Part shown: piece after piece, positions 10,089-21,056 of the stretch
Layout of the letters: each line of letters opens with the position of its first letter
How positions within the stretch are numbered: the first letter of the stretch is position 1
Origin: a virus
DNA: 21,067 bases
Strand: one strand, 5' to 3'
IMG/VR virus record: IMGVR_UViG_3300029448_000284
Span: 8,149-29,215 of that record
Notes under the pieces: generated by a model
The model's database searches: none
What the model saw: the letters and a program-made list of their open reading frames with translations, nothing else
Told to the model about the DNA's origin: nothing
Position numbers and translations under genes: made by a program

Positions 10089-10688
10089 ATGAAATTAAAA
10101 GATATTAACAAACAAGTAAAAGAAAAGCCACTAAGTAAAAAACAATCAAAAGAACAATTTATAAAATATACAAAAGAGCTAGGTATAAAGCATAGTTTTA
10201 ATTTTGATGAAGCTTGGGAAATAGGTGAAGAAATTAGAAAAAGAAATACTTTTAGAGAAAAAATAACTGAAATACAAGAAAAAGGTACTAATGAAGGTTT
10301 ATGGATGGATGATAAAAAACTTCACGAACGCAACCCTGTTAAGCATAGCTTTGCTGATGGTTGTTATATTAGAGAAATATTTAATCCAGCTAATGAGTTA
10401 TTAGTTACTAAAATACATAAAAAAGAACATCCGTTTTTTTTAATGCAAGGAGAAATGTCAATATTGACAGAAGATGGTGTTAAACATCTCAAAGCTCCAT
10501 ATAATGGTATAACAAAACCAGGAACAAAAAGAATTATATATACGCATACTGATTGTGTGTTTGTAACAGTACATGCAACAACTGAAACTGATGTTGCTAA
10601 AATAGAAGAGCAAGTTATTGCTAAGGATTTTTCAGATCCACTAATAACTCAAGAAGATCTTAAATTATTAAAAAATAAAAAAATATGA
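10089..10688 (+). CDS. Cupin-fold protein in the tail gene cluster
   Basis: This is a 199-residue protein. The first 70 residues are charged and helical. Residues about 95-165 have a cupin-type (ChrR-like) layout: KIHKKEHPFFLMQGEMS gives His110, His114 and Gly121 in motif 1. A turn, Pro144-Gly145, is followed by RIIYTHTDCVFVTVHAT, giving His153 and His162 in motif 2. These histidines could bind a metal ion. Cupins include dioxygenases, isomerases, sugar- and zinc-binding anti-sigma domains; the substrate cannot be told here. The gene sits between structural genes, and its stop overlaps the next start by 4 bases (ATGA), suggesting translational coupling to the internal virion protein. It could be a virion part, an assembly factor or a metabolic gene. 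Fold call moderate, function unknown. Confidence 0.6.
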   Translation: MKLKDINKQVKEKPLSKKQSKEQFIKYTKELGIKHSFNFDEAWEIGEEIRKRNTFREKITEIQEKGTNEGLWMDDKKLHERNPVKHSFADGCYIREIFNPANELLVTKIHKKEHPFFLMQGEMSILTEDGVKHLKAPYNGITKPGTKRIIYTHTDCVFVTVHATTETDVAKIEEQVIAKDFSDPLITQEDLKLLKNKKI

Positions 10689-11542
10689 GTTTTATAGCTG
10701 TAGGTATAGGTTTAGGTGTTGCTGCCGGTGCTAAAACAACTGGTGGTATAATAGCTAAAAACAAAGCAAAAAGAGAAAAATCAATGGCTCAAAATGAGTA
10801 CAATAAAAGGATGAGAGCTTATGAAGGTTTAGATACTTCTAATTTGTATGGTAACATGCAGAATACAATGGAGGATATGACAGTAAACCTACAACAAGCA
10901 GAGTTCATGAAACAGCAACAAATGCAAAGTCAAGCAAACGTTTTATCAACTCTTAGAGGTGCTGCAGGTAGTTCTGGTATTGCAGCTTTAGCTCAAGCAT
11001 CACAGGGCCAAGCTAATATAGCTGCACAACGTGCCTCAGCTTCTATAGGTCAACAAGAAAGACAAAATCAAATTCTAGCATCACAACAAGCAGCAAGATT
11101 ACAACAACTAGAAGCAGCGGGTGCAACACAAGCTAGATCATTGGATTATACTAAAACATCTACATTATTAGGTATGTCTCAACAAAGATTAGCAGGAGCA
11201 AGACTTGAAGAAGCTCAAGCAGATGCACAGATAATTGGTGGTATAGCTGATTTAGGTGGAGCTGTTGCAGGTATGGGTTTGTCAGGTGCTTTTAGTGGAG
11301 GAGAAGCTGTAGCTGGTGGTGTTACTGGTGGTGAGACTGGTGGTGCTAGTTCTTTAACTTCTGGTGAGTTTAATTTTAATCAAGCAAATGCTGGTAACCC
11401 TAATAACATATTGAGTTCTGCTTACGAACCTAATTTTAATCCATTTGGTGCTATGCAAGGTGGTAATACAGGTCAATATTTAATGAATCAATTTAGTTTA
11501 GGCGATTTAAATATAGGTACTAATAAAAAATATAGGTCCTAA
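10685..11542 (+). CDS. Internal virion (DNA ejection) protein, T7 gp14-like style
   Basis: This 285-residue protein starts in a 4-base overlap with the cupin gene. Residues 1-25 are Gly/Ala-rich and hydrophobic (IAVGIGLGVAAGAKTTGGII). Residues about 30-190 form a long Ala/Gln/Met-rich helical region (MKQQQMQSQANVLSTLRGAA, AALAQASQGQANIAAQ, QQAARLQQLEAAGATQA). A short hydrophobic Gly/Ala stretch (about 185-205) precedes a Gly/Asn-rich, probably disordered C-terminus. This composition and the place directly before larger internal proteins match small ejection proteins such as T7 gp14 or P22 gp7, which form a channel in the outer membrane. The match is in style and position, not in a specific motif. 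A short direct repeat spans its stop codon. Confidence 0.6.
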   Translation: MSFIAVGIGLGVAAGAKTTGGIIAKNKAKREKSMAQNEYNKRMRAYEGLDTSNLYGNMQNTMEDMTVNLQQAEFMKQQQMQSQANVLSTLRGAAGSSGIAALAQASQGQANIAAQRASASIGQQERQNQILASQQAARLQQLEAAGATQARSLDYTKTSTLLGMSQQRLAGARLEEAQADAQIIGGIADLGGAVAGMGLSGAFSGGEAVAGGVTGGETGGASSLTSGEFNFNQANAGNPNNILSSAYEPNFNPFGAMQGGNTGQYLMNQFSLGDLNIGTNKKYRS

Positions 11543-11557: not shown

Positions 11558-12961
11558 ATGAAAGCAGACAAAGGATTAATAAAAGGAGCAGCACAATTAG
11601 CACAAACTAATTTAATTGCACAACAGCAAAAGATGCAAGCTATAGAAGGTTTTGGCCAGACTTTTAGCTCAGTATATAACATGATACAGCAGCAAAAAAA
11701 TGCAGAAAAACTAGCTGAAAAAGAGCTGTATGAAGATCAAAGAGCTAGATATAAAGAAGAAATGAAAGACGTTAACGACGTTGATTATAGTTTTGAAGCT
11801 TTAAATGCAGAACAAGTAAACATGTATAGAGAGTTTGCTACTGGTAAAAAGCAAAGATATTCTGAAATATTTTACGAACTAGAAAATAAGTCATTAACTC
11901 AGCAACAAAGAAATGATTTAGAGTTTGAAAAATCTGTTATATTATCTGATCTTAGAAACTCAGCAGCTAGCCTAGCATCTGCAACAGAAAGACAAAATAA
12001 AACTAGAGAATCTTACGAAGCCGGTGATATATCTGACTCTAATTTTTACACTGATCCTGGTAGCATGAGTAATTTATACGATACTATGATGCGTAATAAT
12101 TTTTCTATTGATGAAAGAGGTAATGCTATTGTTAATACTAATTATAATTTAAAGGCTACTGAACAAGCTAATGACTTTATAAAAATTAATGAAGATATTA
12201 GAAAACAAGTTAGAACTTATGGAATAAATCCATTAGAAAAAGAAGAAGATAAATTATTAAGAAGAAATAAAATTGAAAATTCTTTAGATGATGGCGAAGT
12301 TTTATCTTTTATGTTTGATGATTTAGATATTAATAATGGAGGTTATTATGATTCAATTTTAGCTAAAAATCCACAACTTAAGAATAAATTTAATGAGATG
12401 AGAACTCATTTGTCAGATCCAAATAAAAGAAAAGAAGCTATAAAATACTTTAAAAGTGTGGTTTCTGATGAGTTGATGTTAGGCATTGATTCTAATATTC
12501 AAGCTGGAACAGCAGAATATAAAGCAAAAAATCCAGATCCTAAAGATGATGATAAAAAAGAAAAATTCACAGGTCAAGCACTTAAAAACTTTAATACTAG
12601 AGAAGGTTTAAAAGATTTAAGAAAACTAAAATTTAAAATGTCTGAAAAAGAAATGTCTGAAATAACAGGTCCTATCTTACAAGAGCAAATAGATCCTACT
12701 ACAGGAAAAAAACTTGAAATAGATGATAAAAAACTTCAAGACTATAATTCTTATATATATGAAGTTGCAAATACTTTGTCAAAAATATTAGGTTCAACTC
12801 AAAATAATAATGTTAGTTATAATACTGAAACAGAAATGTTTGAAATAATGGGTCCTAGCTATGGTTTAGGAAGTTATACACTTGAACAAGTACTTAGTGA
12901 AGATGACACAGATCCAAATAATTTAGCTTATAGATTTAGACAAATGTCTACAGAAGAATAA
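11558..12961 (+). CDS. Internal virion protein, helical (ejection protein candidate)
   Basis: This 467-residue protein starts 15 bases after the previous stop. Residues 1-100 are a Gln/Lys/Glu-rich amphipathic helix (LAQTNLIAQQQKMQAIEGFG, then NMIQQQKNAEKLAEKELYED) with coiled-coil character. The rest is highly charged, mostly helical and rich in Asp, Glu, Lys and Asn, with no membrane segment, Cys cluster or enzyme motif visible. The position between the gp14-like protein and the megaprotein, with only 1 base before the next start, suggests the middle protein of a three-part ejection set (as T7 gp14-gp15-gp16 or P22 gp7-gp20-gp16). This is inferred from order and composition; a scaffold for the inner core is an alternative. 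Confidence 0.5.
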   Translation: MKADKGLIKGAAQLAQTNLIAQQQKMQAIEGFGQTFSSVYNMIQQQKNAEKLAEKELYEDQRARYKEEMKDVNDVDYSFEALNAEQVNMYREFATGKKQRYSEIFYELENKSLTQQQRNDLEFEKSVILSDLRNSAASLASATERQNKTRESYEAGDISDSNFYTDPGSMSNLYDTMMRNNFSIDERGNAIVNTNYNLKATEQANDFIKINEDIRKQVRTYGINPLEKEEDKLLRRNKIENSLDDGEVLSFMFDDLDINNGGYYDSILAKNPQLKNKFNEMRTHLSDPNKRKEAIKYFKSVVSDELMLGIDSNIQAGTAEYKAKNPDPKDDDKKEKFTGQALKNFNTREGLKDLRKLKFKMSEKEMSEITGPILQEQIDPTTGKKLEIDDKKLQDYNSYIYEVANTLSKILGSTQNNNVSYNTETEMFEIMGPSYGLGSYTLEQVLSEDDTDPNNLAYRFRQMSTEE

Positions 12962-12962
12962 T

Positions 12963-15900
12963 ATGATAAATTTTAACAACATAGTTTCTAAAGATCCAAA
13001 ACCAGTTTTTGATGTTTCTAAATATCTTTTAACTGTTGATGATATTACAGGCAAGGAAGAGGATGTAAGAAAAATTATTTCTAAAAAACTAGCAATAACA
13101 GGTTTAAATGTTAAAGAAGATTTTACAACTCCATTCAATGAATTTGGTGCTAGTATAGATGCTATTACTTTATCTAAAGTTAACATTTTAAATGAAGATG
13201 TTGACTATACTACACAATCAATAAGTGATCAAATAAAAGAATATAAAGAAAACAATATAACAATACCTGTAAACAGTAGCGATTCTGCAGAAGAAAGAGT
13301 TAAAAAATTAAATGACTTTATAAGAGCTAATGCTGATCCAGATTTTTTAAATAAAGCTAAAAGTGATAATCCTAAAATTCTTGAAGATATAATAACTAAT
13401 TTTCAACAACACATACCTAGCGATACTGATGTAAAACAACAATTAATAAATGAAAGATTAGATTTTCTTGAAGACATAAAGTCTCAAGAAACATATTACA
13501 AACAATTTGAAGCAGGTGATTTTACTTATAAAGCTACTCCTGAACAAAGAAAAGATTATGAATTATATAGTCAAGGTAAAGCATTACCTGATTTTACATC
13601 AGAGCAAGTAGCTAAAAAGAAAGATGAAATAATAAATTCAAATGCTGAAAAGTGGGTGTCAGAATATGCTTCTGATTTATCTGATTTACAGAGAAAACAA
13701 ACTTTAGCTATACTTTATGATCATGAAGATACTTACTTAAAAGAAAGAGCTAGTTATGTTAAAAAAATAGATAATTTAACACAAAATGCTAATGATAGAT
13801 TAAAATTTATTGAAGACATGGATGCTGGAATAGAAAAAGATTATCCAGGTCTTTTAACAAAACTTACAAACAAAGAACAAATTGAGCAAGGCAAATACAC
13901 ATCTGATCAATTACTTAACTTAGAAACTTTAATTAGAGATAGAAATAAAGAAATATCAGCATATCTAACTCAGATTGAAAAAATAGATGAGATGAAACTT
14001 GTTACAAGTAAAGAAAAAGGTGAGTTTTATCTACCATTAGCTATACGTAACTTTGAAAAAAATTATAGTAGAATTGAACAAACACAAAGTTTGTTTAAGT
14101 CTATGGGTGCAATGGCTCTTTATGGCGCTGCAGATTTAGCAAGAAGAGCTAATGCTATAACTTTACCTGTGTCAACTATGACACCATTAGTTGAATTAGT
14201 TGAAGAAGTAGGGCAAGAAGGAGAAGGTTATCAATATACAATACCTGTAGATAAAATATCTAATGCTAAGGATTTATCTAGGTGGCTTATGAGCTCTGCT
14301 ATAAATACAGGCACTTCTTTATCTATGGCTGCAGTTGGAGGTCCTGCTGCTTTACCATTGTTTTTTACTATAGGTTATGGTGATGTAGCTTCTAGTTATC
14401 ATATACAAAGAGATAAAGCTGAGGCTAGAATGTTTAATATGAAAGACTTATTAGACTCAGGGGCTGTACTCACACCAGAGCAAGATGCACAAGTAAAAGA
14501 AGATATTAGAATATTAGGTTTATCAGATCTTCAAGTTTTTGCTACAGCAGGCATAGCTGGTCTTATAGAAGTTGCTACTGAAAAACTGACAACATTAAAA
14601 CTATTAGCTGGTGTTAAAAGAAGTGTAACTCAAGTAGCTAAAAAAGATATAAAATTAGCTTCAAGAGAGATATTCAAAGGACTTACATTAGAACCTGCTG
14701 GTGAATCAGTTGTAGAACTTACAAATAACTTTGCAGACATACAAATACTAGGTGAAGATAAAGACTATTTTGAAAATGTTACTGAAGTATTTTTTCAGTC
14801 TTTATTACCTGGTACTGGTTTTTCTATTAGAAATGCTGCACCATTCGTTAATAGTATAGTTGTAAATGAATTTTCAGATAAAAAGCAAGCAAAAAAATTA
14901 GCTGAAAATGAAATAAAACTTAATAAATTAATAGGAAACAAAAAAATATCAAGATTACCTAAAGGTACTAGATCTTTAATTGATGATATAGTACAAGAAA
15001 ATAAAAAAATAAAAAATCAAATATACGCAAAGCTTAGAAATGGTACATTAACTTCTAAAGATATTAGTGACCTTGGCAAAGCTTCAATTAAAATGCGTAA
15101 AATACAAAGAGAAGTTACTGCAGCAGCTAATGATCCAAGTCTTAGTTTATCTGAAAAGAAACAAATAAAAGATGAAAGTAAAATAGAGTTTGATAAACAA
15201 AGTGGTATTAGAGAGAAAATATTAACGAGTGATCCTCTTGTTGCTACAGAAAAAAATAAAATTCAACAAGAAACTATAGATCAATTTAATTTTATTAATA
15301 AACAGTTAAGTGGTAATGCAATTAATAGATTAAATGTAGAATATAATTTATTAGGAGGATTAAAGAAACAACAAGTTAATCAAGATATTATTGATAATTT
15401 TATTGATAATGATAAGCTTGTGTATGAAGAAGCTAATGATGAACAAAAAGAAGTAATATTAGGTCAAGCATACATAAAAAACAAATTAACAGAAGAATTT
15501 GAGTTAAATTCACAAAATGCAGAAAAAATATTAGATGTTTTAAATGAACAATTAGGCACAGACACTAAAGTTTATTATATAAAAGAAGAAACAGAATACA
15601 TAAAAGAAGCATTTAAAGAAGGCGGCACAGAAAATTTAACAAAAAGAGCTTCTAACAATATTTTAAGTGATTTATCTCAAGATGTTGTGGATGAAAATGG
15701 TAATCAAATTAGGTTTGAAAATCAATCAGATGAACAAAAAGCACAAACAAGGATAAATTATCAAACATATAAAAGATCTTTTGGTTTTTTTGGAGGTGAA
15801 AAAGGTAATGTTTTTATAAATAGAGATAAATCTATTGCAGGTGGTGAAGTCGGCATTGTCTTACATGAAATACTTCATGCTTACTTTGATAAAAAGCAAG

Positions 15901-18900
15901 AACAATTAAGTGAAAGTTTAAGTGAAACAACTACATTAAAAGAATCTTTTGATGAAACAGAAGGTAGAAATTTATTGTCATATTTAAAAAAAGAACAACC
16001 AGATTTATATGCTCAAGTAACTAGACAGCTTGAAATGGTAACAGAAGCTAGAGATAAAAATTATACTGAAGAAAAACGACCCTTGTATTCTTTAGATAAA
16101 GAAGTTATGAGTGTATTATCAGACGTTATATTAGGTTCTAAAAGAAATGTACCAAAATCAATACGTAAAAGTATAACTGATTTAGTTAATAATTTAATAC
16201 CTAAAAAATTTAGAGATACTAAGTTTGGTAATTTCTTCAAACCAACTGACAGTGAAGCTTTATTTGATTTTATAATAGATTTTAATAACAGAGTTAGTTC
16301 TGATAATAATTTTTATAATCAAGTATCTGCTAAAAGTGCTTTTGATAAAGCAGAAAAAGTAAAAAAAGAAATTACAAATAAAAAAATAAATGAGAATCTT
16401 GAATCAACTGACAAGATAATAAGTGAATTATCAAAACAAACAACAAGTAATCTTAATAGAATTTATGCTGAAGCAGAAAACATTGATGATATAATTTTTG
16501 ATGTAGCTAATGAATTAATAACTACTAAAACAATAGATAAAGAAGGTAATGTAAATATAATGCCTGGTGATGGTTTGATAGGTAAATTAGTCGATTATGG
16601 TAATGAGAAAATTAAAGGAAGAGCTGGTGTACCATTATTTAGAGAATTTAGAGATCAAATAATATTTGAGGCTGCATATGGTGGTAATGAAAAAGGTAAA
16701 AATACAAACACTAAAGGAAGAAATGCTAATACTGGTATACCTGATTTAATAAGAACATATAATCCAAATAATGAAGCGGGTATGTCTTTTGCTTCATGGA
16801 TATATAAATATTTACCTTTAAGAATAAATGGTATTGCAAATCATTATTTAAATGCACCTGATGATAGTTATGCAATAAGTATGTCTCAACAAGAGAGTAG
16901 CGATTTTTTATCTGGTCAAACAGATGCTTTGATTACTACTCAACAAGAAATATCTCAGTCTAATGAAGATCTTATTAACGAACAAAAAAGAGTTGAAAAA
17001 TTATTAGATCCCAGAAATATTATAGCAGATGATGAATTAAAAAATAAAGCTACAAATATTATTTTAGATAATTTTGAAGATATATCAGATGATCCTTTAT
17101 CATTTAAGTCATTACCTGATTTATCTCCAGAGACAACTGCTGAAATATTTCAAATACCAGCTAAAAAATTAATTCCTAAAAACAATTTTACTCAAGGTGA
17201 ACTCAAAAATACAATGAGAACACTTGATGATATGTTTGATGACTTTGTAAAAATATTTCCTAAAGGTGCTGTTGTTGATAAAGCAGTAACTCAAGACTTA
17301 TACGGAACTTCTACAGGTTTACCTACTAATGTATTAACTGCTTTTTATAAAAAAGGTAATAGAATAGATACAGCATCAGGTTTACCTATATATGAATTAG
17401 CAGAAATTACTAAAGAACAGTTTAGACAAGAGCTTGGTATATTACCTGATGGAACTATACCTGACAAAGTATTTGTGCAATCAACACAAGCCCAGACAGC
17501 TAAGGGTTTAGCTATAATGTTTGGTAAGCTTGTAACTAATACTACAGTAAGACAATATTTACAGACCTTAAGTGCTAAAGAGCAATTAACAGCAGATATT
17601 GCAGCTGGTAAAAGTGAGAATATGTTATCAATACTATTAGATAATACTAAAAATTATTTTGACAAAACTTTTGCTCCTCGTGATTATATATCATATGTGG
17701 GTTCTGTAGTAAATACTATAAGTTCTTATATGATACCTAATGAAAAAATTAATAAATATACTACTAATGTAAATGCTGGTAATTTTGAGGATAGATTTAA
17801 AGCAGCAAAAAAACTATACTTAAATTATGTTAATGAAAATATTAAATCTAAAAATAAAAGACCAAATACACTGGAAAAATTAAGACTTTTAAATGAAGAT
17901 GATTTAGATATAATAATTAGCAAACTACAAAAAACAAAAATTAAAAAATTAGTTAAAAAGAATTATGTAAAAAGAAATACTAGTTATAAAGCATTAGCAT
18001 GGGAAGACATTTTATCCACGGCAGTTTTTGAACAAAAAAATTCTAAGTTTGTAATATTAGAAGAAGGAACAACTGGTTATGACTCTACTTCACCAGATTT
18101 ACAAGTTAAAGTAACATTACCTGTTCCTGATAAAGATGGCAAAACTAAAGAAAAAGAATTTATAATTTTCTTTGAAGCTAAACTAACAACAGGCGCTAGA
18201 CTTGGTAGTCTTGGTTCTACTACAGTTAAATTATTAAACAAACAATTAGAATATTCATCTTTAAGTGGCGGGGAAAACAAAAGCATAGAAAATAGTATTA
18301 AAGAAAGTAAAAAAGACATAAATGATGCATATATTAAATTAATAGAATTTATTAGTGAAAGGCATGAAGGATTTAATACTATAGGTTCTATAGGTAAAAA
18401 AGGTGAACCTAATTCAAATAAACTAAATGAAGAAACATATGAATTAGCTAAAGATAAAGGTTTAGTAAAAGAAACAGATTTTACTTTTTATACAGACATA
18501 AATGAAATGTCTGATAAGTATAATGATAAGGATAATTATTTTATAGAAATAAAGGATAAAGGTTTATACTTTATTGGCAAAAACAAAGCAGACAACATTT
18601 TTAACTTACCTGAATTAAAGAAAAAAAATGATCAATATGTTAAAATTGGTGTTAGAACTAATATAACAAAAGGTGATACTGATACAAATGGCTTTTTTAA
18701 TCTAAGAATAAGATCCCAGTTTGTGCTGGGTAAAGGTCAAAGATTAAAAAAATCAGACTACACATTAAACGATATAGCAGGTTTAATGGAAAAAATGCCA
18801 AATAATTTAATAGAAAACGACAAAGGAAGACCTGTTCAAAATTTAGAATCTTTAGATACTAGATTTAATAGTATAATAGAAGAAACAAAAGGTAATAAAA

Positions 18901-21056
18901 GTTTACTAGCGAAAGCTGATAAGGTTATACCAGAAGTTATAGCTAGACAGCAAGGTGCAAGTATAGGTAAATATAAGTTTTTTGTACCTCCATCAGCAGA
19001 AGATTTTATGGGTCTTATGTATTCTTTTATGGGTAAAGGTACTCAAGGTGATTTGCATAAACAATTTTTTGAAGAAACATTAAATAAACCATACAAAAGA
19101 GGTATAGCTCAGTTAGAATCTGCTAAGCAGAAAATAGAAACAGATTATAAAAAGCTTAGAAAAAAATATCCTGAAGTATATAAAAAGTTAAGTAAAAAAA
19201 TGCCTGGCACTGAATTTACTCATGACCAAGCTATAAGAATATTTCTTTGGAAAAGTGGTGGTTTTGATTTAGAGGAAACTGGTTTAGAACCAGAAACATC
19301 AGAAGGTAGAAAATTAATAAATGATGCTTTTTTTGCTGTAGCTAAAGATCGTGATTTGCAACAATTTGCAAGAGGTGTTGGACTTATATCTGGTCAAGAA
19401 AAAGGCTGGATTGAACCTACTAGAGACTGGGTTATTGATAATATAGCTAGTGATTTAAATAACATATCAGATAAAATAAGTAGAAAAGAATTTTTACAAG
19501 AATTTACAGATAACTATAAAGAAATATTTAATAAGCAAAACTTAAATAAGATAGAAGCTATATATGGTACTAGATTTAAACATGCCTTGGAAGACATACT
19601 TTTTAGGATGGAAAAAGGTACTAATAGAAACTTTGGATCTGAAGACGCTAGAGCTAACGATTTTGCTGATTTTCTAAATGGTTCTGTTGGAGCTATAATG
19701 TTCTTTAACATGAGATCAGCAGCACTTCAAACTTTATCTGCTGCTAATTATATTAATTGGAGTGATAACAATATATATGCAGCTGGCAAGGCATTTGCAA
19801 ATGTACCTCAATATTATGCAGATGTTGCTACATTATTTAATTCTGACAAATTAAAACAAAGAAGAAAAGGTTTTAAAATTGATGTTAATCAGGCTGAGTT
19901 AGTTAGATCGATAGAAGGCCAAAAGAATAAATTTAAAGCAGCATTAAGATATTTACTTAAAATTGGTTTTACACCTACTCAAGCTGTTGATAGTCTAGCT
20001 ATAGCAACTGGTGGTGCTAGTTTTTATAGAAACAGAACTAAAACTTATCAAGAGCAAGGACTTAGTTTAAAAGAAGCTGAAGCAAAAGCTTTTGAAGACT
20101 TTTCAGAAATTACTGATCAAAGTCAGCAGTCATCAGATCCAGCTATGGTATCTGAGCAACAGGCTAATAAGTTTAGTAGATGGGTATTATCTTTTCAAAA
20201 TACATCTATGCAGTATAATAGACTTATAAAGAAAGCTGCATTAGATATAGCAAATAATAGAGGTAATACTAAAGAAAATGTATCAAAAATACTTTATTAT
20301 ACATTTGTTCAAAACTTTATATTTAACGCATTATCTAGCGCTTTATTTGCTGTAGCACTTGGTAGTAGTGATGATGATGAAAAAGATCAGCAAAAAATTT
20401 TAAGAACTGCTAATGGTATGGCGGACACTATATTAAAAGGTGCTGGGTATTATGGAGCTATAGTTGCAATGTTAAAAAATACTGCTTTTGAAATACATAA
20501 ACAAGAAAGTAAGAGTTGGGGTAAAGATTATGTATATGTTCTTTTATCAATGCTAAATGTTGCACCAGCTGTAGGTTCTAAGTTTTCAAAGGGATATAAA
20601 ATACAAAAAACATATGAGTTTCAAAAAGATCTTATAAAAGAAAGAGGTTTTTATCCTGGTACTTTAGATCCAAAAAGTTTTGGTAAAAAACAAAGTTTTG
20701 GTTTTAAAGGAGCAAAAAACATTATTGATAATCCTGCTTATATGATGGTTGGTTATGGTCTTTCTGTTGTAAATATACCTTTAGATAGAGTAATAAAGAA
20801 AGTAAGCAACGCTAGTTATGCTTTAGATAATACTACTAAAAACTGGCAAAAAACAGCTTTAATCTTTGGTTTTAGTACTTGGGATCTTGACTTGAAAAAT
20901 GCTGATGGTCTTATTATAAAAGAAAGAGCTCAAGATCAAAGAAGAGAAGCTGGTTATAAAAAAGCCGCTGCAACTAGAAAAAAAAATAATCCTAAACTTA
21001 CAAAGCAACAAAAACTAACAAAAAAAAGTAGAAAGCTTAACAAATTAATAAAATAA
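12963..21056 (+). CDS. 2697-residue internal virion megaprotein (multi-enzyme ejection protein)
   Basis: It starts 1 base after the previous stop. Residues 1-350 are charged and helical. Residues about 446-475 (SLSMAAVGGPAALPLFFTIG) and 522-540 (VFATAGIAGLIEVAT) are membrane-prone. Residues 965-975 hold a zinc-peptidase motif, His968-Glu-Ile-Leu-His972, and Glu1047 in DKEVMSVLSDV could be the third ligand. Residues about 1255-1300 (LIRTYNPNNEAGMSFASWIY) resemble sigma region 2. Residues 1681-1740 hold a PD-(D/E)XK-type set: Glu1681, Asp1712, Glu1738-Ala-Lys1740. From PPSAEDF (2009) to the end lies a module with RSAALQTLSAANYINWSDNN (2251-2270) and a hydrophobic helix near 2448-2467. I know this module from megaproteins of uncultured marine phages. 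The tail is Lys-rich. By position it is the counterpart of T7 gp16, probably ejected with DNA. Enzyme activities are predicted, not shown. Confidence 0.65.
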   Translation: MINFNNIVSKDPKPVFDVSKYLLTVDDITGKEEDVRKIISKKLAITGLNVKEDFTTPFNEFGASIDAITLSKVNILNEDVDYTTQSISDQIKEYKENNITIPVNSSDSAEERVKKLNDFIRANADPDFLNKAKSDNPKILEDIITNFQQHIPSDTDVKQQLINERLDFLEDIKSQETYYKQFEAGDFTYKATPEQRKDYELYSQGKALPDFTSEQVAKKKDEIINSNAEKWVSEYASDLSDLQRKQTLAILYDHEDTYLKERASYVKKIDNLTQNANDRLKFIEDMDAGIEKDYPGLLTKLTNKEQIEQGKYTSDQLLNLETLIRDRNKEISAYLTQIEKIDEMKLVTSKEKGEFYLPLAIRNFEKNYSRIEQTQSLFKSMGAMALYGAADLARRANAITLPVSTMTPLVELVEEVGQEGEGYQYTIPVDKISNAKDLSRWLMSSAINTGTSLSMAAVGGPAALPLFFTIGYGDVASSYHIQRDKAEARMFNMKDLLDSGAVLTPEQDAQVKEDIRILGLSDLQVFATAGIAGLIEVATEKLTTLKLLAGVKRSVTQVAKKDIKLASREIFKGLTLEPAGESVVELTNNFADIQILGEDKDYFENVTEVFFQSLLPGTGFSIRNAAPFVNSIVVNEFSDKKQAKKLAENEIKLNKLIGNKKISRLPKGTRSLIDDIVQENKKIKNQIYAKLRNGTLTSKDISDLGKASIKMRKIQREVTAAANDPSLSLSEKKQIKDESKIEFDKQSGIREKILTSDPLVATEKNKIQQETIDQFNFINKQLSGNAINRLNVEYNLLGGLKKQQVNQDIIDNFIDNDKLVYEEANDEQKEVILGQAYIKNKLTEEFELNSQNAEKILDVLNEQLGTDTKVYYIKEETEYIKEAFKEGGTENLTKRASNNILSDLSQDVVDENGNQIRFENQSDEQKAQTRINYQTYKRSFGFFGGEKGNVFINRDKSIAGGEVGIVLHEILHAYFDKKQEQLSESLSETTTLKESFDETEGRNLLSYLKKEQPDLYAQVTRQLEMVTEARDKNYTEEKRPLYSLDKEVMSVLSDVILGSKRNVPKSIRKSITDLVNNLIPKKFRDTKFGNFFKPTDSEALFDFIIDFNNRVSSDNNFYNQVSAKSAFDKAEKVKKEITNKKINENLESTDKIISELSKQTTSNLNRIYAEAENIDDIIFDVANELITTKTIDKEGNVNIMPGDGLIGKLVDYGNEKIKGRAGVPLFREFRDQIIFEAAYGGNEKGKNTNTKGRNANTGIPDLIRTYNPNNEAGMSFASWIYKYLPLRINGIANHYLNAPDDSYAISMSQQESSDFLSGQTDALITTQQEISQSNEDLINEQKRVEKLLDPRNIIADDELKNKATNIILDNFEDISDDPLSFKSLPDLSPETTAEIFQIPAKKLIPKNNFTQGELKNTMRTLDDMFDDFVKIFPKGAVVDKAVTQDLYGTSTGLPTNVLTAFYKKGNRIDTASGLPIYELAEITKEQFRQELGILPDGTIPDKVFVQSTQAQTAKGLAIMFGKLVTNTTVRQYLQTLSAKEQLTADIAAGKSENMLSILLDNTKNYFDKTFAPRDYISYVGSVVNTISSYMIPNEKINKYTTNVNAGNFEDRFKAAKKLYLNYVNENIKSKNKRPNTLEKLRLLNEDDLDIIISKLQKTKIKKLVKKNYVKRNTSYKALAWEDILSTAVFEQKNSKFVILEEGTTGYDSTSPDLQVKVTLPVPDKDGKTKEKEFIIFFEAKLTTGARLGSLGSTTVKLLNKQLEYSSLSGGENKSIENSIKESKKDINDAYIKLIEFISERHEGFNTIGSIGKKGEPNSNKLNEETYELAKDKGLVKETDFTFYTDINEMSDKYNDKDNYFIEIKDKGLYFIGKNKADNIFNLPELKKKNDQYVKIGVRTNITKGDTDTNGFFNLRIRSQFVLGKGQRLKKSDYTLNDIAGLMEKMPNNLIENDKGRPVQNLESLDTRFNSIIEETKGNKSLLAKADKVIPEVIARQQGASIGKYKFFVPPSAEDFMGLMYSFMGKGTQGDLHKQFFEETLNKPYKRGIAQLESAKQKIETDYKKLRKKYPEVYKKLSKKMPGTEFTHDQAIRIFLWKSGGFDLEETGLEPETSEGRKLINDAFFAVAKDRDLQQFARGVGLISGQEKGWIEPTRDWVIDNIASDLNNISDKISRKEFLQEFTDNYKEIFNKQNLNKIEAIYGTRFKHALEDILFRMEKGTNRNFGSEDARANDFADFLNGSVGAIMFFNMRSAALQTLSAANYINWSDNNIYAAGKAFANVPQYYADVATLFNSDKLKQRRKGFKIDVNQAELVRSIEGQKNKFKAALRYLLKIGFTPTQAVDSLAIATGGASFYRNRTKTYQEQGLSLKEAEAKAFEDFSEITDQSQQSSDPAMVSEQQANKFSRWVLSFQNTSMQYNRLIKKAALDIANNRGNTKENVSKILYYTFVQNFIFNALSSALFAVALGSSDDDEKDQQKILRTANGMADTILKGAGYYGAIVAMLKNTAFEIHKQESKSWGKDYVYVLLSMLNVAPAVGSKFSKGYKIQKTYEFQKDLIKERGFYPGTLDPKSFGKKQSFGFKGAKNIIDNPAYMMVGYGLSVVNIPLDRVIKKVSNASYALDNTTKNWQKTALIFGFSTWDLDLKNADGLIIKERAQDQRREAGYKKAAATRKKNNPKLTKQQKLTKKSRKLNKLIK
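15855..16130 (+). other. Zinc metallopeptidase-like domain core in the megaprotein
   Basis: Megaprotein residues about 965-1055. The core GIVLHEILHAYFDKK has His968 and His972 as zinc ligands and Glu969 as the likely catalytic base. About 75 residues on, DKEVMSVLSDV supplies Glu1047, the sort of Glu plus Ser/Asp helix seen as third ligand in gluzincin-like families. A role in cutting host envelope proteins, or in self-processing after ejection, is inference. Confidence 0.55.
18000..18185 (+). other. PD-(D/E)XK nuclease-like motif in the megaprotein
   Basis: Megaprotein residues 1681-1740. A helix with Glu1681 (WEDILSTAVFEQ) is followed by a strand with Asp1712 (SPDLQVKV) and a strand ending Phe-Phe-Glu1738-Ala-Lys1740. 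The order E...D...ExK is that of the PD-(D/E)XK nuclease fold. The spacing from Asp to Glu (26 residues) is acceptable because a charged loop (DKDGKTKEKE) lies between. The activity could act on host or phage DNA during entry. Confidence 0.45.

Follow-up and report, generated by a model that had tools for sequence, protein, structure and literature searches.

The question raised by this locus is what kind of protein is encoded by the single giant reading frame that lies at the end of a virus sequence, and what such a protein might do when infection begins. The window, by which we mean the whole 21,067-nucleotide stretch that was analysed, covers bases 8149-29215 of a virus record that is 29,215 bases long and opens with virion genes matched by PHROGs. 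The frame was established to be intact, with an ATG start and no internal stops, and an earlier, sequence-only reading of this DNA, which had placed one frame of 2697 residues at 12963-21056, proved exact in its coordinates. An assembly artefact or chimera was ruled out because a homologue from a different metagenome, L007, aligns collinearly with residues 15-2671 at 80% identity. Upstream in the record one frame was read as the portal on account of its database matches, and other frames there were read, by position and by eye, as terminase, scaffold-like and capsid-like genes. The portal exhibits 54% identity to that of Manatee Spring podovirus and 43-45% identity to those of phages of Maribacter and Flavobacterium, and the latter similarity makes a host within the Bacteroidota likely; the phage is marine, and its hosts are probably Flavobacteria-like. 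The features discussed below are collected in Table 1.

Table 1. Features of the giant frame and of its upstream neighbours, in window coordinates
Feature	Position	Strand	Basis
Upstream neighbour, 285 aa, Cys-free	10685..11542	+	positional counterpart of Gundel_1 gp072
Upstream neighbour, 467 aa, Cys-free	11558..12961	+	positional counterpart of Gundel_1 gp073
Giant protein gene, whole frame, no Cys	12963..21056	+	ORF reading; collinear homologue L007
N-terminal Gly/Ala-rich helical, weakly hydrophobic region (residues ~370-640)	14070..14882	+	Kyte-Doolittle profile
Zincin-like metallopeptidase core (residues 923-1058)	15729..16136	+	profile, HMM matches, structure model
HEILH active-site motif (residues 968-972; H968, E969, H972)	15864..15878	+	sequence, conservation
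E1047, aligned downstream Glu, predicted third zinc ligand	16101..16103	+	invariant in 45 aligned sequences
ELSK, weak junction motif at the joint of zincin and sigma-like unit	16425..16436	+	same place as YSK, MSK, FSR in relatives
Sigma-70 region-2-like unit (residues 1256-1295)	16728..16847	+	through relative L038
Conserved module after the sigma-like unit (residues 1349-1556)	17007..17630	+	L007 alignment, structure model
GKSENMLS, junction before the exchange slot	17607..17630	+	GDGKSxxMFSK in many relatives
Exchange slot with PD-(D/E)XK-like module (residues 1557-1963)	17631..18851	+	module common only to the window giant and L007
Predicted nuclease-like core (D1712 at 18096, E1738 at 18174, K1740 at 18180)	17988..18362	+	low-confidence model
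Universal C-terminal module, all-helical (residues 1964-2697; 734 residues)	18852..21053	+	alignments, structure model

No Pfam family scored above its cut-off in the giant of the window, nor was a match obtained among PDB sequences. A search of IMG/VR with the last 713 residues of the giant returned 139 relatives, 80 of which were fetched, and the first set comprised 68 distinct complete giants of 2240-4058 residues. GTDB genome contigs yielded 17 further relatives, all metagenome-assembled and none from an isolate, and most of a hold-out set of 65 new relatives came from rescanning IMG/VR with a distant relative as query. Sequence similarity places the window giant in a large protein family from uncultured marine phages. 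All relatives cover residues ~1964-2648 of the window giant and about one third of them align with parts of residues 1258-1556, while near-full-length alignment was obtained with L007 only. The region near the N-terminus that had been described as membrane-prone turned out to be marginally hydrophobic, its peak being one 19-residue window (residues 517-535) with a Kyte-Doolittle mean of 1.65, which is weaker than had been claimed. This region was matched by eye to related regions of family member L001 and of the cultured phages Gundel_1 and elemoA, with E-values of 1e-11 between L001 and Gundel_1 and 5e-12 between Gundel_1 and elemoA.

Composition and gene neighbourhood point to a protein that leaves the virion. 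Not one of the 2697 residues of the window giant is cysteine, and Cys is absent outside the C-terminal tail from 59 of 70 first-set and 60 of 65 hold-out giants. The same property extends to the two small proteins encoded just upstream: among the relatives, gene -1 is Cys-free in 50 of 60 loci and gene -2 in 47 of 51. The window shares with Gundel_1, phi13:2, phi38:1 and elemoA the order of a ~200-aa gene, a ~500-aa gene and a giant; in these four phages all three products are devoid of Cys, and annotation calls the giants virion or structural proteins, some of these labels having been assigned by similarity. Cys is present in the large tail proteins and in both terminases that were read. The virion RNA polymerases of N4-like phages are likewise reported to be Cys-free, which has been ascribed to their passage through the tail on injection (PMC3915230, PMC4837373). 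As some other virion proteins also lack Cys, its absence is regarded as a supporting sign of ejection rather than as proof, and it may provide a simple marker for ejected proteins.

The conserved C-terminal module that the sequence-only reading had noticed is present in all relatives, with an identity to the window of about 42-94% among those fetched and a mean column identity of 48% in an alignment of 43 members. Its AlphaFold2 model is all-helical (mean pLDDT 71.5), and a Foldseek search of this model against PDB returned nothing significant. Against BFVD 38 matches were obtained at E <= 0.001, of which the top four were close giants (37-42% identity, E < 1e-40), while 34 further viral proteins at E < 1e-3 included several named ART-PolyVal or large polyvalent protein-associated. 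LPD38 was not matched in any of 10 records, and its control likewise matched nowhere. The absence of Cys and the synteny with virion proteins lend indirect support to ejection of the window giant into the cell. The idea of an injected multi-domain protein is largely right as to kind, given the polyvalent class, the Cys-free trio, the virion synteny and the C-terminal fold match, but a modular ejected chain, probably cut, is the more fitting description. The sequence-only reading had seen neither the exchange slot in the middle nor the repeated, co-varying motif at the module joints of relatives, which suggests that the protein is cut into pieces instead of working as a single chain. In 28 of 70 giants (L025 among them) the chain terminates in a tail rich in Cys and His that contains two repeats resembling zinc knuckles, the remainder of these proteins being nearly Cys-free.

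An embedded zinc peptidase is strongly supported by conservation among the relatives. The HEILH motif had been taken from the outset as that of a zinc peptidase, and the chance of finding any HExxH in a shuffled window giant is 0.0015. Exactly one HExxH was present in 67 of the 68 complete first-set relatives and, counted before the C-terminal module, in 59 of the 65 hold-out relatives, for which shuffles give 0.6 overall; the motif is retained in 126 of 133 relatives despite a surrounding region of only 11-19% identity. A downstream Glu was aligned in 45 of 45 sequences with 11-19% identity to the window, at 49 to 112 residues after HExxH. The alignment was built from HExxH-bearing sequences, for which reason the invariance of H, E and H within it arises by selection, and the set-wide HExxH counts constitute the fair test. 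The zincin profile HMM matched Gundel_1 (1.5e-27, Gundel_1 being part of the profile) and elemoA (4e-9). A model of residues 850-1963 (mean pLDDT 60) placed a helix, strands, the HExxH helix and then the Glu helix in succession, and a helix and strand layout with an HExxH helix and a later Glu has been described for the peptidases of polyvalent proteins (PMC5512222). Structure prediction and fold search, which had been suggested as a check, thus returned a zincin-like order of elements and no significant PDB match by Foldseek, leaving the zincin fold unconfirmed there. Degenerate zincins were observed in L115, L119, L128 and L159, in which the first His of HExxH is replaced (EELFH, QEVGH, EELYH) and Glu and the second His are retained.

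Downstream of the peptidase lies the putative cargo. The sigma-like unit is supported through a relative: L038 exceeds the Pfam cut-off for Sigma70_r2 (27.4 bits against a cut-off of 24; 2.8e-6) and is homologous to the window giant from residue 1259 onward (31%, E = 5e-31), the alignment covering only the second half of the Sigma70_r2 match of L038. The candidate copy in the window giant itself falls below Pfam detection. At E up to 1, Sigma70_r2 was seen in 3 of 67 family members, and no sigma region 4 was found. The conserved module that follows was predicted with block pLDDT values of up to 97 and matches no known fold.

The next segment behaves as an exchange slot. L001 and the window giant share 94% identity over the C-terminal module and 64% over residues 1258-1556 but carry unrelated modules in between, the slot content having been exchanged between two anchors that are closely related. 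The slot module of L007 is 92% identical to that of the window. Most other relatives carry in this position a module with an EHxxP-type motif, often followed by a HAD-like DFDDT domain at a distance of ~168 or ~367 residues from the C-terminal module; this HAD domain is absent from the window giant, L001 and L007. The common slot module (e.g. residues 1530-1640 of L037) contains H..R, then EHxxP and later D and looks HNH-like by eye, a label that is a guess only, as a PDB profile search gave nothing significant. In one group of relatives, which includes L070, L078 and L063, the HAD-like domain, located between slot and C-terminal module, is split by an inserted P-loop kinase (AAA_33/Zeta_toxin, above the Pfam cut-off in L070 and L078), a kinase-phosphatase pairing reminiscent of polynucleotide end repair.

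In what is the slot module of the window giant a PD-(D/E)XK-like nuclease motif had been noticed, which belongs to a fold in which D and E-x-K occupy neighbouring strands of an alpha-beta-beta-beta-alpha-beta core. The model places P1711-D1712 and E1738-A-K1740 on two adjacent strands, with a helix before and a long helix after, in an alpha-beta-beta-beta-alpha order, at a confidence mostly below 75. The P-D...E-x-K pattern also occurs in 68% of shuffled copies of the window giant and so is no evidence by itself; a fold search of the model including this core against PDB gave no match, and homologues of the module in phages, plasmids and IMG/VR were limited to L007. We regard the nuclease assignment as a plausible hypothesis at about even odds.

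A short motif recurs at the joints between modules in most of the relatives. [MQIK]FS[KR] occurs in 62 copies in 45 non-redundant giants, as compared to 8.2 ± 3.1 in shuffles; the motif was spotted in this first set, so that these statistics are post hoc; independent testing comes from the hold-out set, whose C-terminal modules are nevertheless related to those of the first set. In the hold-out 67 copies were present where 12.2 were expected, with a scrambled control at 12 as against 12.0, and KFSK was the most repeated four-residue word. Scrambled controls at expectation rule out an effect of composition, the count in the 561 further ORFs of these loci (7 versus 9.0), which shows no enrichment, rules out a general phage feature, and the synonymously differing codons of the copies rule out DNA recombination as their source. 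Roughly one copy is found per module joint: one site follows the zincin and another the conserved middle module (GDGKSxxMFSK), and the HAD domain and the C-terminal module (QQAKxKFSK) are each preceded by a site, these last two being where copies are densest. Of 148 pairs of copies within a protein, 49 agree in the residue that precedes FS, as compared to 22.6 ± 4.1 (hold-out p = 0.01), and rare variants shift jointly at several joints, such as VKWS at three in L081, KFKR at four in L018 and LQF[SA] at three in L015. Motif similarity tracks zincin similarity after correction for the C-terminal module (partial r 0.15, p 0.0005), a small effect from matrices that include related sequences. In these respects the motif looks like a set of polyprotein cut sites. 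Some relatives are without a clear junction motif, and the joints of the window giant, L001 and L007 have no FS[KR], only ELSK and NMLS; as its own motif is weak, cutting of the window giant is a prediction made from its relatives.

Taking the intact frame, the conserved zincin residues, the exclusion of Cys, the universal C-terminal module, the exchange of slot content and the co-varying junction motif of the relatives together, we consider it fairly probable that the window giant is a polyvalent, probably self-processed ejected protein, i.e. a Cys-free chain in which a zincin cuts the joints and frees cargo, where ejection, cleavage, the zincin as cutter and the activities of the cargo are the parts that we infer. 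Under this model the giant would be made as a single chain, would be packed in the virion with the two small Cys-free proteins encoded just upstream, and would cross the short tail at the onset of infection, packing and passage being served by the all-helical C-terminal module and the Gly/Ala-rich helical N-terminal part. The cargo would lie in the middle, as the sigma-region-2-like unit and the exchangeable module, here a possible PD-(D/E)XK nuclease, and the embedded zincin would most likely cut the chain at the module joints and thereby free it.

This model has to be weighed against other functions for the motif. L115 and L159, both from the hold-out set, keep KFSK joints despite having lost the first His of HExxH, so a different protease may do the cutting, or the site may have another function. 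Placement at module joints at about one copy per joint, as for cut sites, and a partial correlation of the motif with the zincin that exceeds that with the C-terminal module make it rather unlikely that the motif is a docking tag through which every module is tethered or packaged, the short peptide binding one partner (the C-terminal module, the portal or a neighbour protein), with the giant staying whole like the N4 virion RNA polymerase; a common partner would also make the copies vary together, the N4 enzyme has an HExxH domain and yet is packaged uncut (PMC5512222), and the two zincin-damaged relatives fit such a tag. We consider it improbable that cutting at the motif is the work of a separate protease, from phage or host, while the zincin acts as an effector on host proteins: the retention of the motif by zincin-damaged relatives would agree with this, and Iyer and colleagues also weighed effector roles for such peptidases (PMC5512222), whereas a general head-maturation protease should have sites in the 561 other ORFs, which are not enriched, and covariation of motif and zincin would not be expected. 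A purely structural ejection-channel protein with inactive, enzyme-like remnants, to which the absence of PDB fold matches, the chance-level nuclease motif and the loss of the first His in some relatives could be reconciled, is scarcely credible in view of the retention of HExxH amid such low identity and of kinase domains above Pfam cut-offs in relatives.

Returning to the self-processed ejected chain, a more far-reaching version, which we hold tentatively and at slightly less than an even chance, is that of a DNA-phage polyprotein with its own junction code, in which a fast-evolving peptidase and the joint motifs co-vary across phages and whatever cargo is flanked by two joints would be released once ejected. 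If this is true, the cargo could be a nuclease, an HNH-like module, a phosphatase with an inserted kinase or a sigma-like unit, and the giant would amount to a natural delivery chain of the plug-in type, its cut signals specific to each phage. The concerted, repeated motif gives exact candidate cut sites and allows module borders to be marked from sequence alone, and the slot shows how such phages may swap their injected content.

By most tested features the window giant belongs with the phage-type polyvalent proteins described by Iyer et al. in 2017 (PMC5512222), which are very large and multi-domain, contain an embedded zincin (HExxH and a later Glu) and are thought to be injected and partly self-processed. 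Several disparate domains are likewise joined in one chain here, namely the zincin, the sigma-region-2-like unit and the variable slot, to which relatives add HAD-like and kinase domains, and proteins that bear the polyvalent name are matched by the C-terminal fold. The window giant differs in that neither an LPD nor another Pfam polyvalent domain was found in it, with the LPD38 control silent too, and in its sigma-region-2-like unit, the co-varying junction motif of its family and the fixed slot before a universal C-terminal module, none of which forms part of that description. Self-cutting of injected phage proteins by their own zincin was proposed in that study, the main text of which gives no cut sites, does not contain the words 'sigma' or 'linker' and has 'cleavage site' only in a reference title (PMC5512222). 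We therefore regard the co-varying motif and the exchange slot as the parts that are new relative to known polyvalent proteins.

The N4 virion RNA polymerase of the Schitoviridae is similar in that it is an ejected protein of ~3500 residues in which an HExxH domain precedes a large C-terminal domain that is mostly helical and has no known fold (PMC12633501), and N4-like virion polymerases share the absence of Cys (PMC3915230), whereas the N4 protein is packaged unprocessed (PMC5512222). An N4-type RNA polymerase was rejected as an identity for the giant, as Pfam, PHROGs and PDB sequence searches revealed no polymerase catalytic domain and no sequence similarity was found. The cargo proteins of the crassvirus phi-crAss001 are also large and virus-encoded; in this podovirus of Bacteroidota they reside in head and tail, and ejection through the tail has been suggested for them, whereas that study describes no embedded peptidase with junction motifs (PMC10172136). 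A phage tblastn search gave no sequence match to them. Among cultured phages, gp074 of Tenacibaculum phage Gundel_1 (Pachyviridae) occupies the same place in the virion gene block, comprises 2482 residues without Cys, has an HEFGH zincin and contains a stretch similar to the C-terminal module (26%, E 3e-9), while it is without FS[KR] joints of the family type and its middle region is unrelated, with a weak acetyltransferase-like stretch.

Other giants in the same gene position carry HEIFH and HEFGH motifs, these being elemoA gp21 (L088, 7432-18516; 3694 aa), which has no Cys, and the giant of MW202828 (L107, from 36920), with one Cys in the 1826 residues read; the family C-terminal module was matched neither in elemoA nor, by tblastn, in MW202828. 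Elsewhere in the window, between 1974 and 10050, PHROG family 18548 matches in two pieces, the middle of a 2575-aa tail protein and the next frame of 114 aa, a pattern that looks as if a large insertion had split a smaller tail protein.
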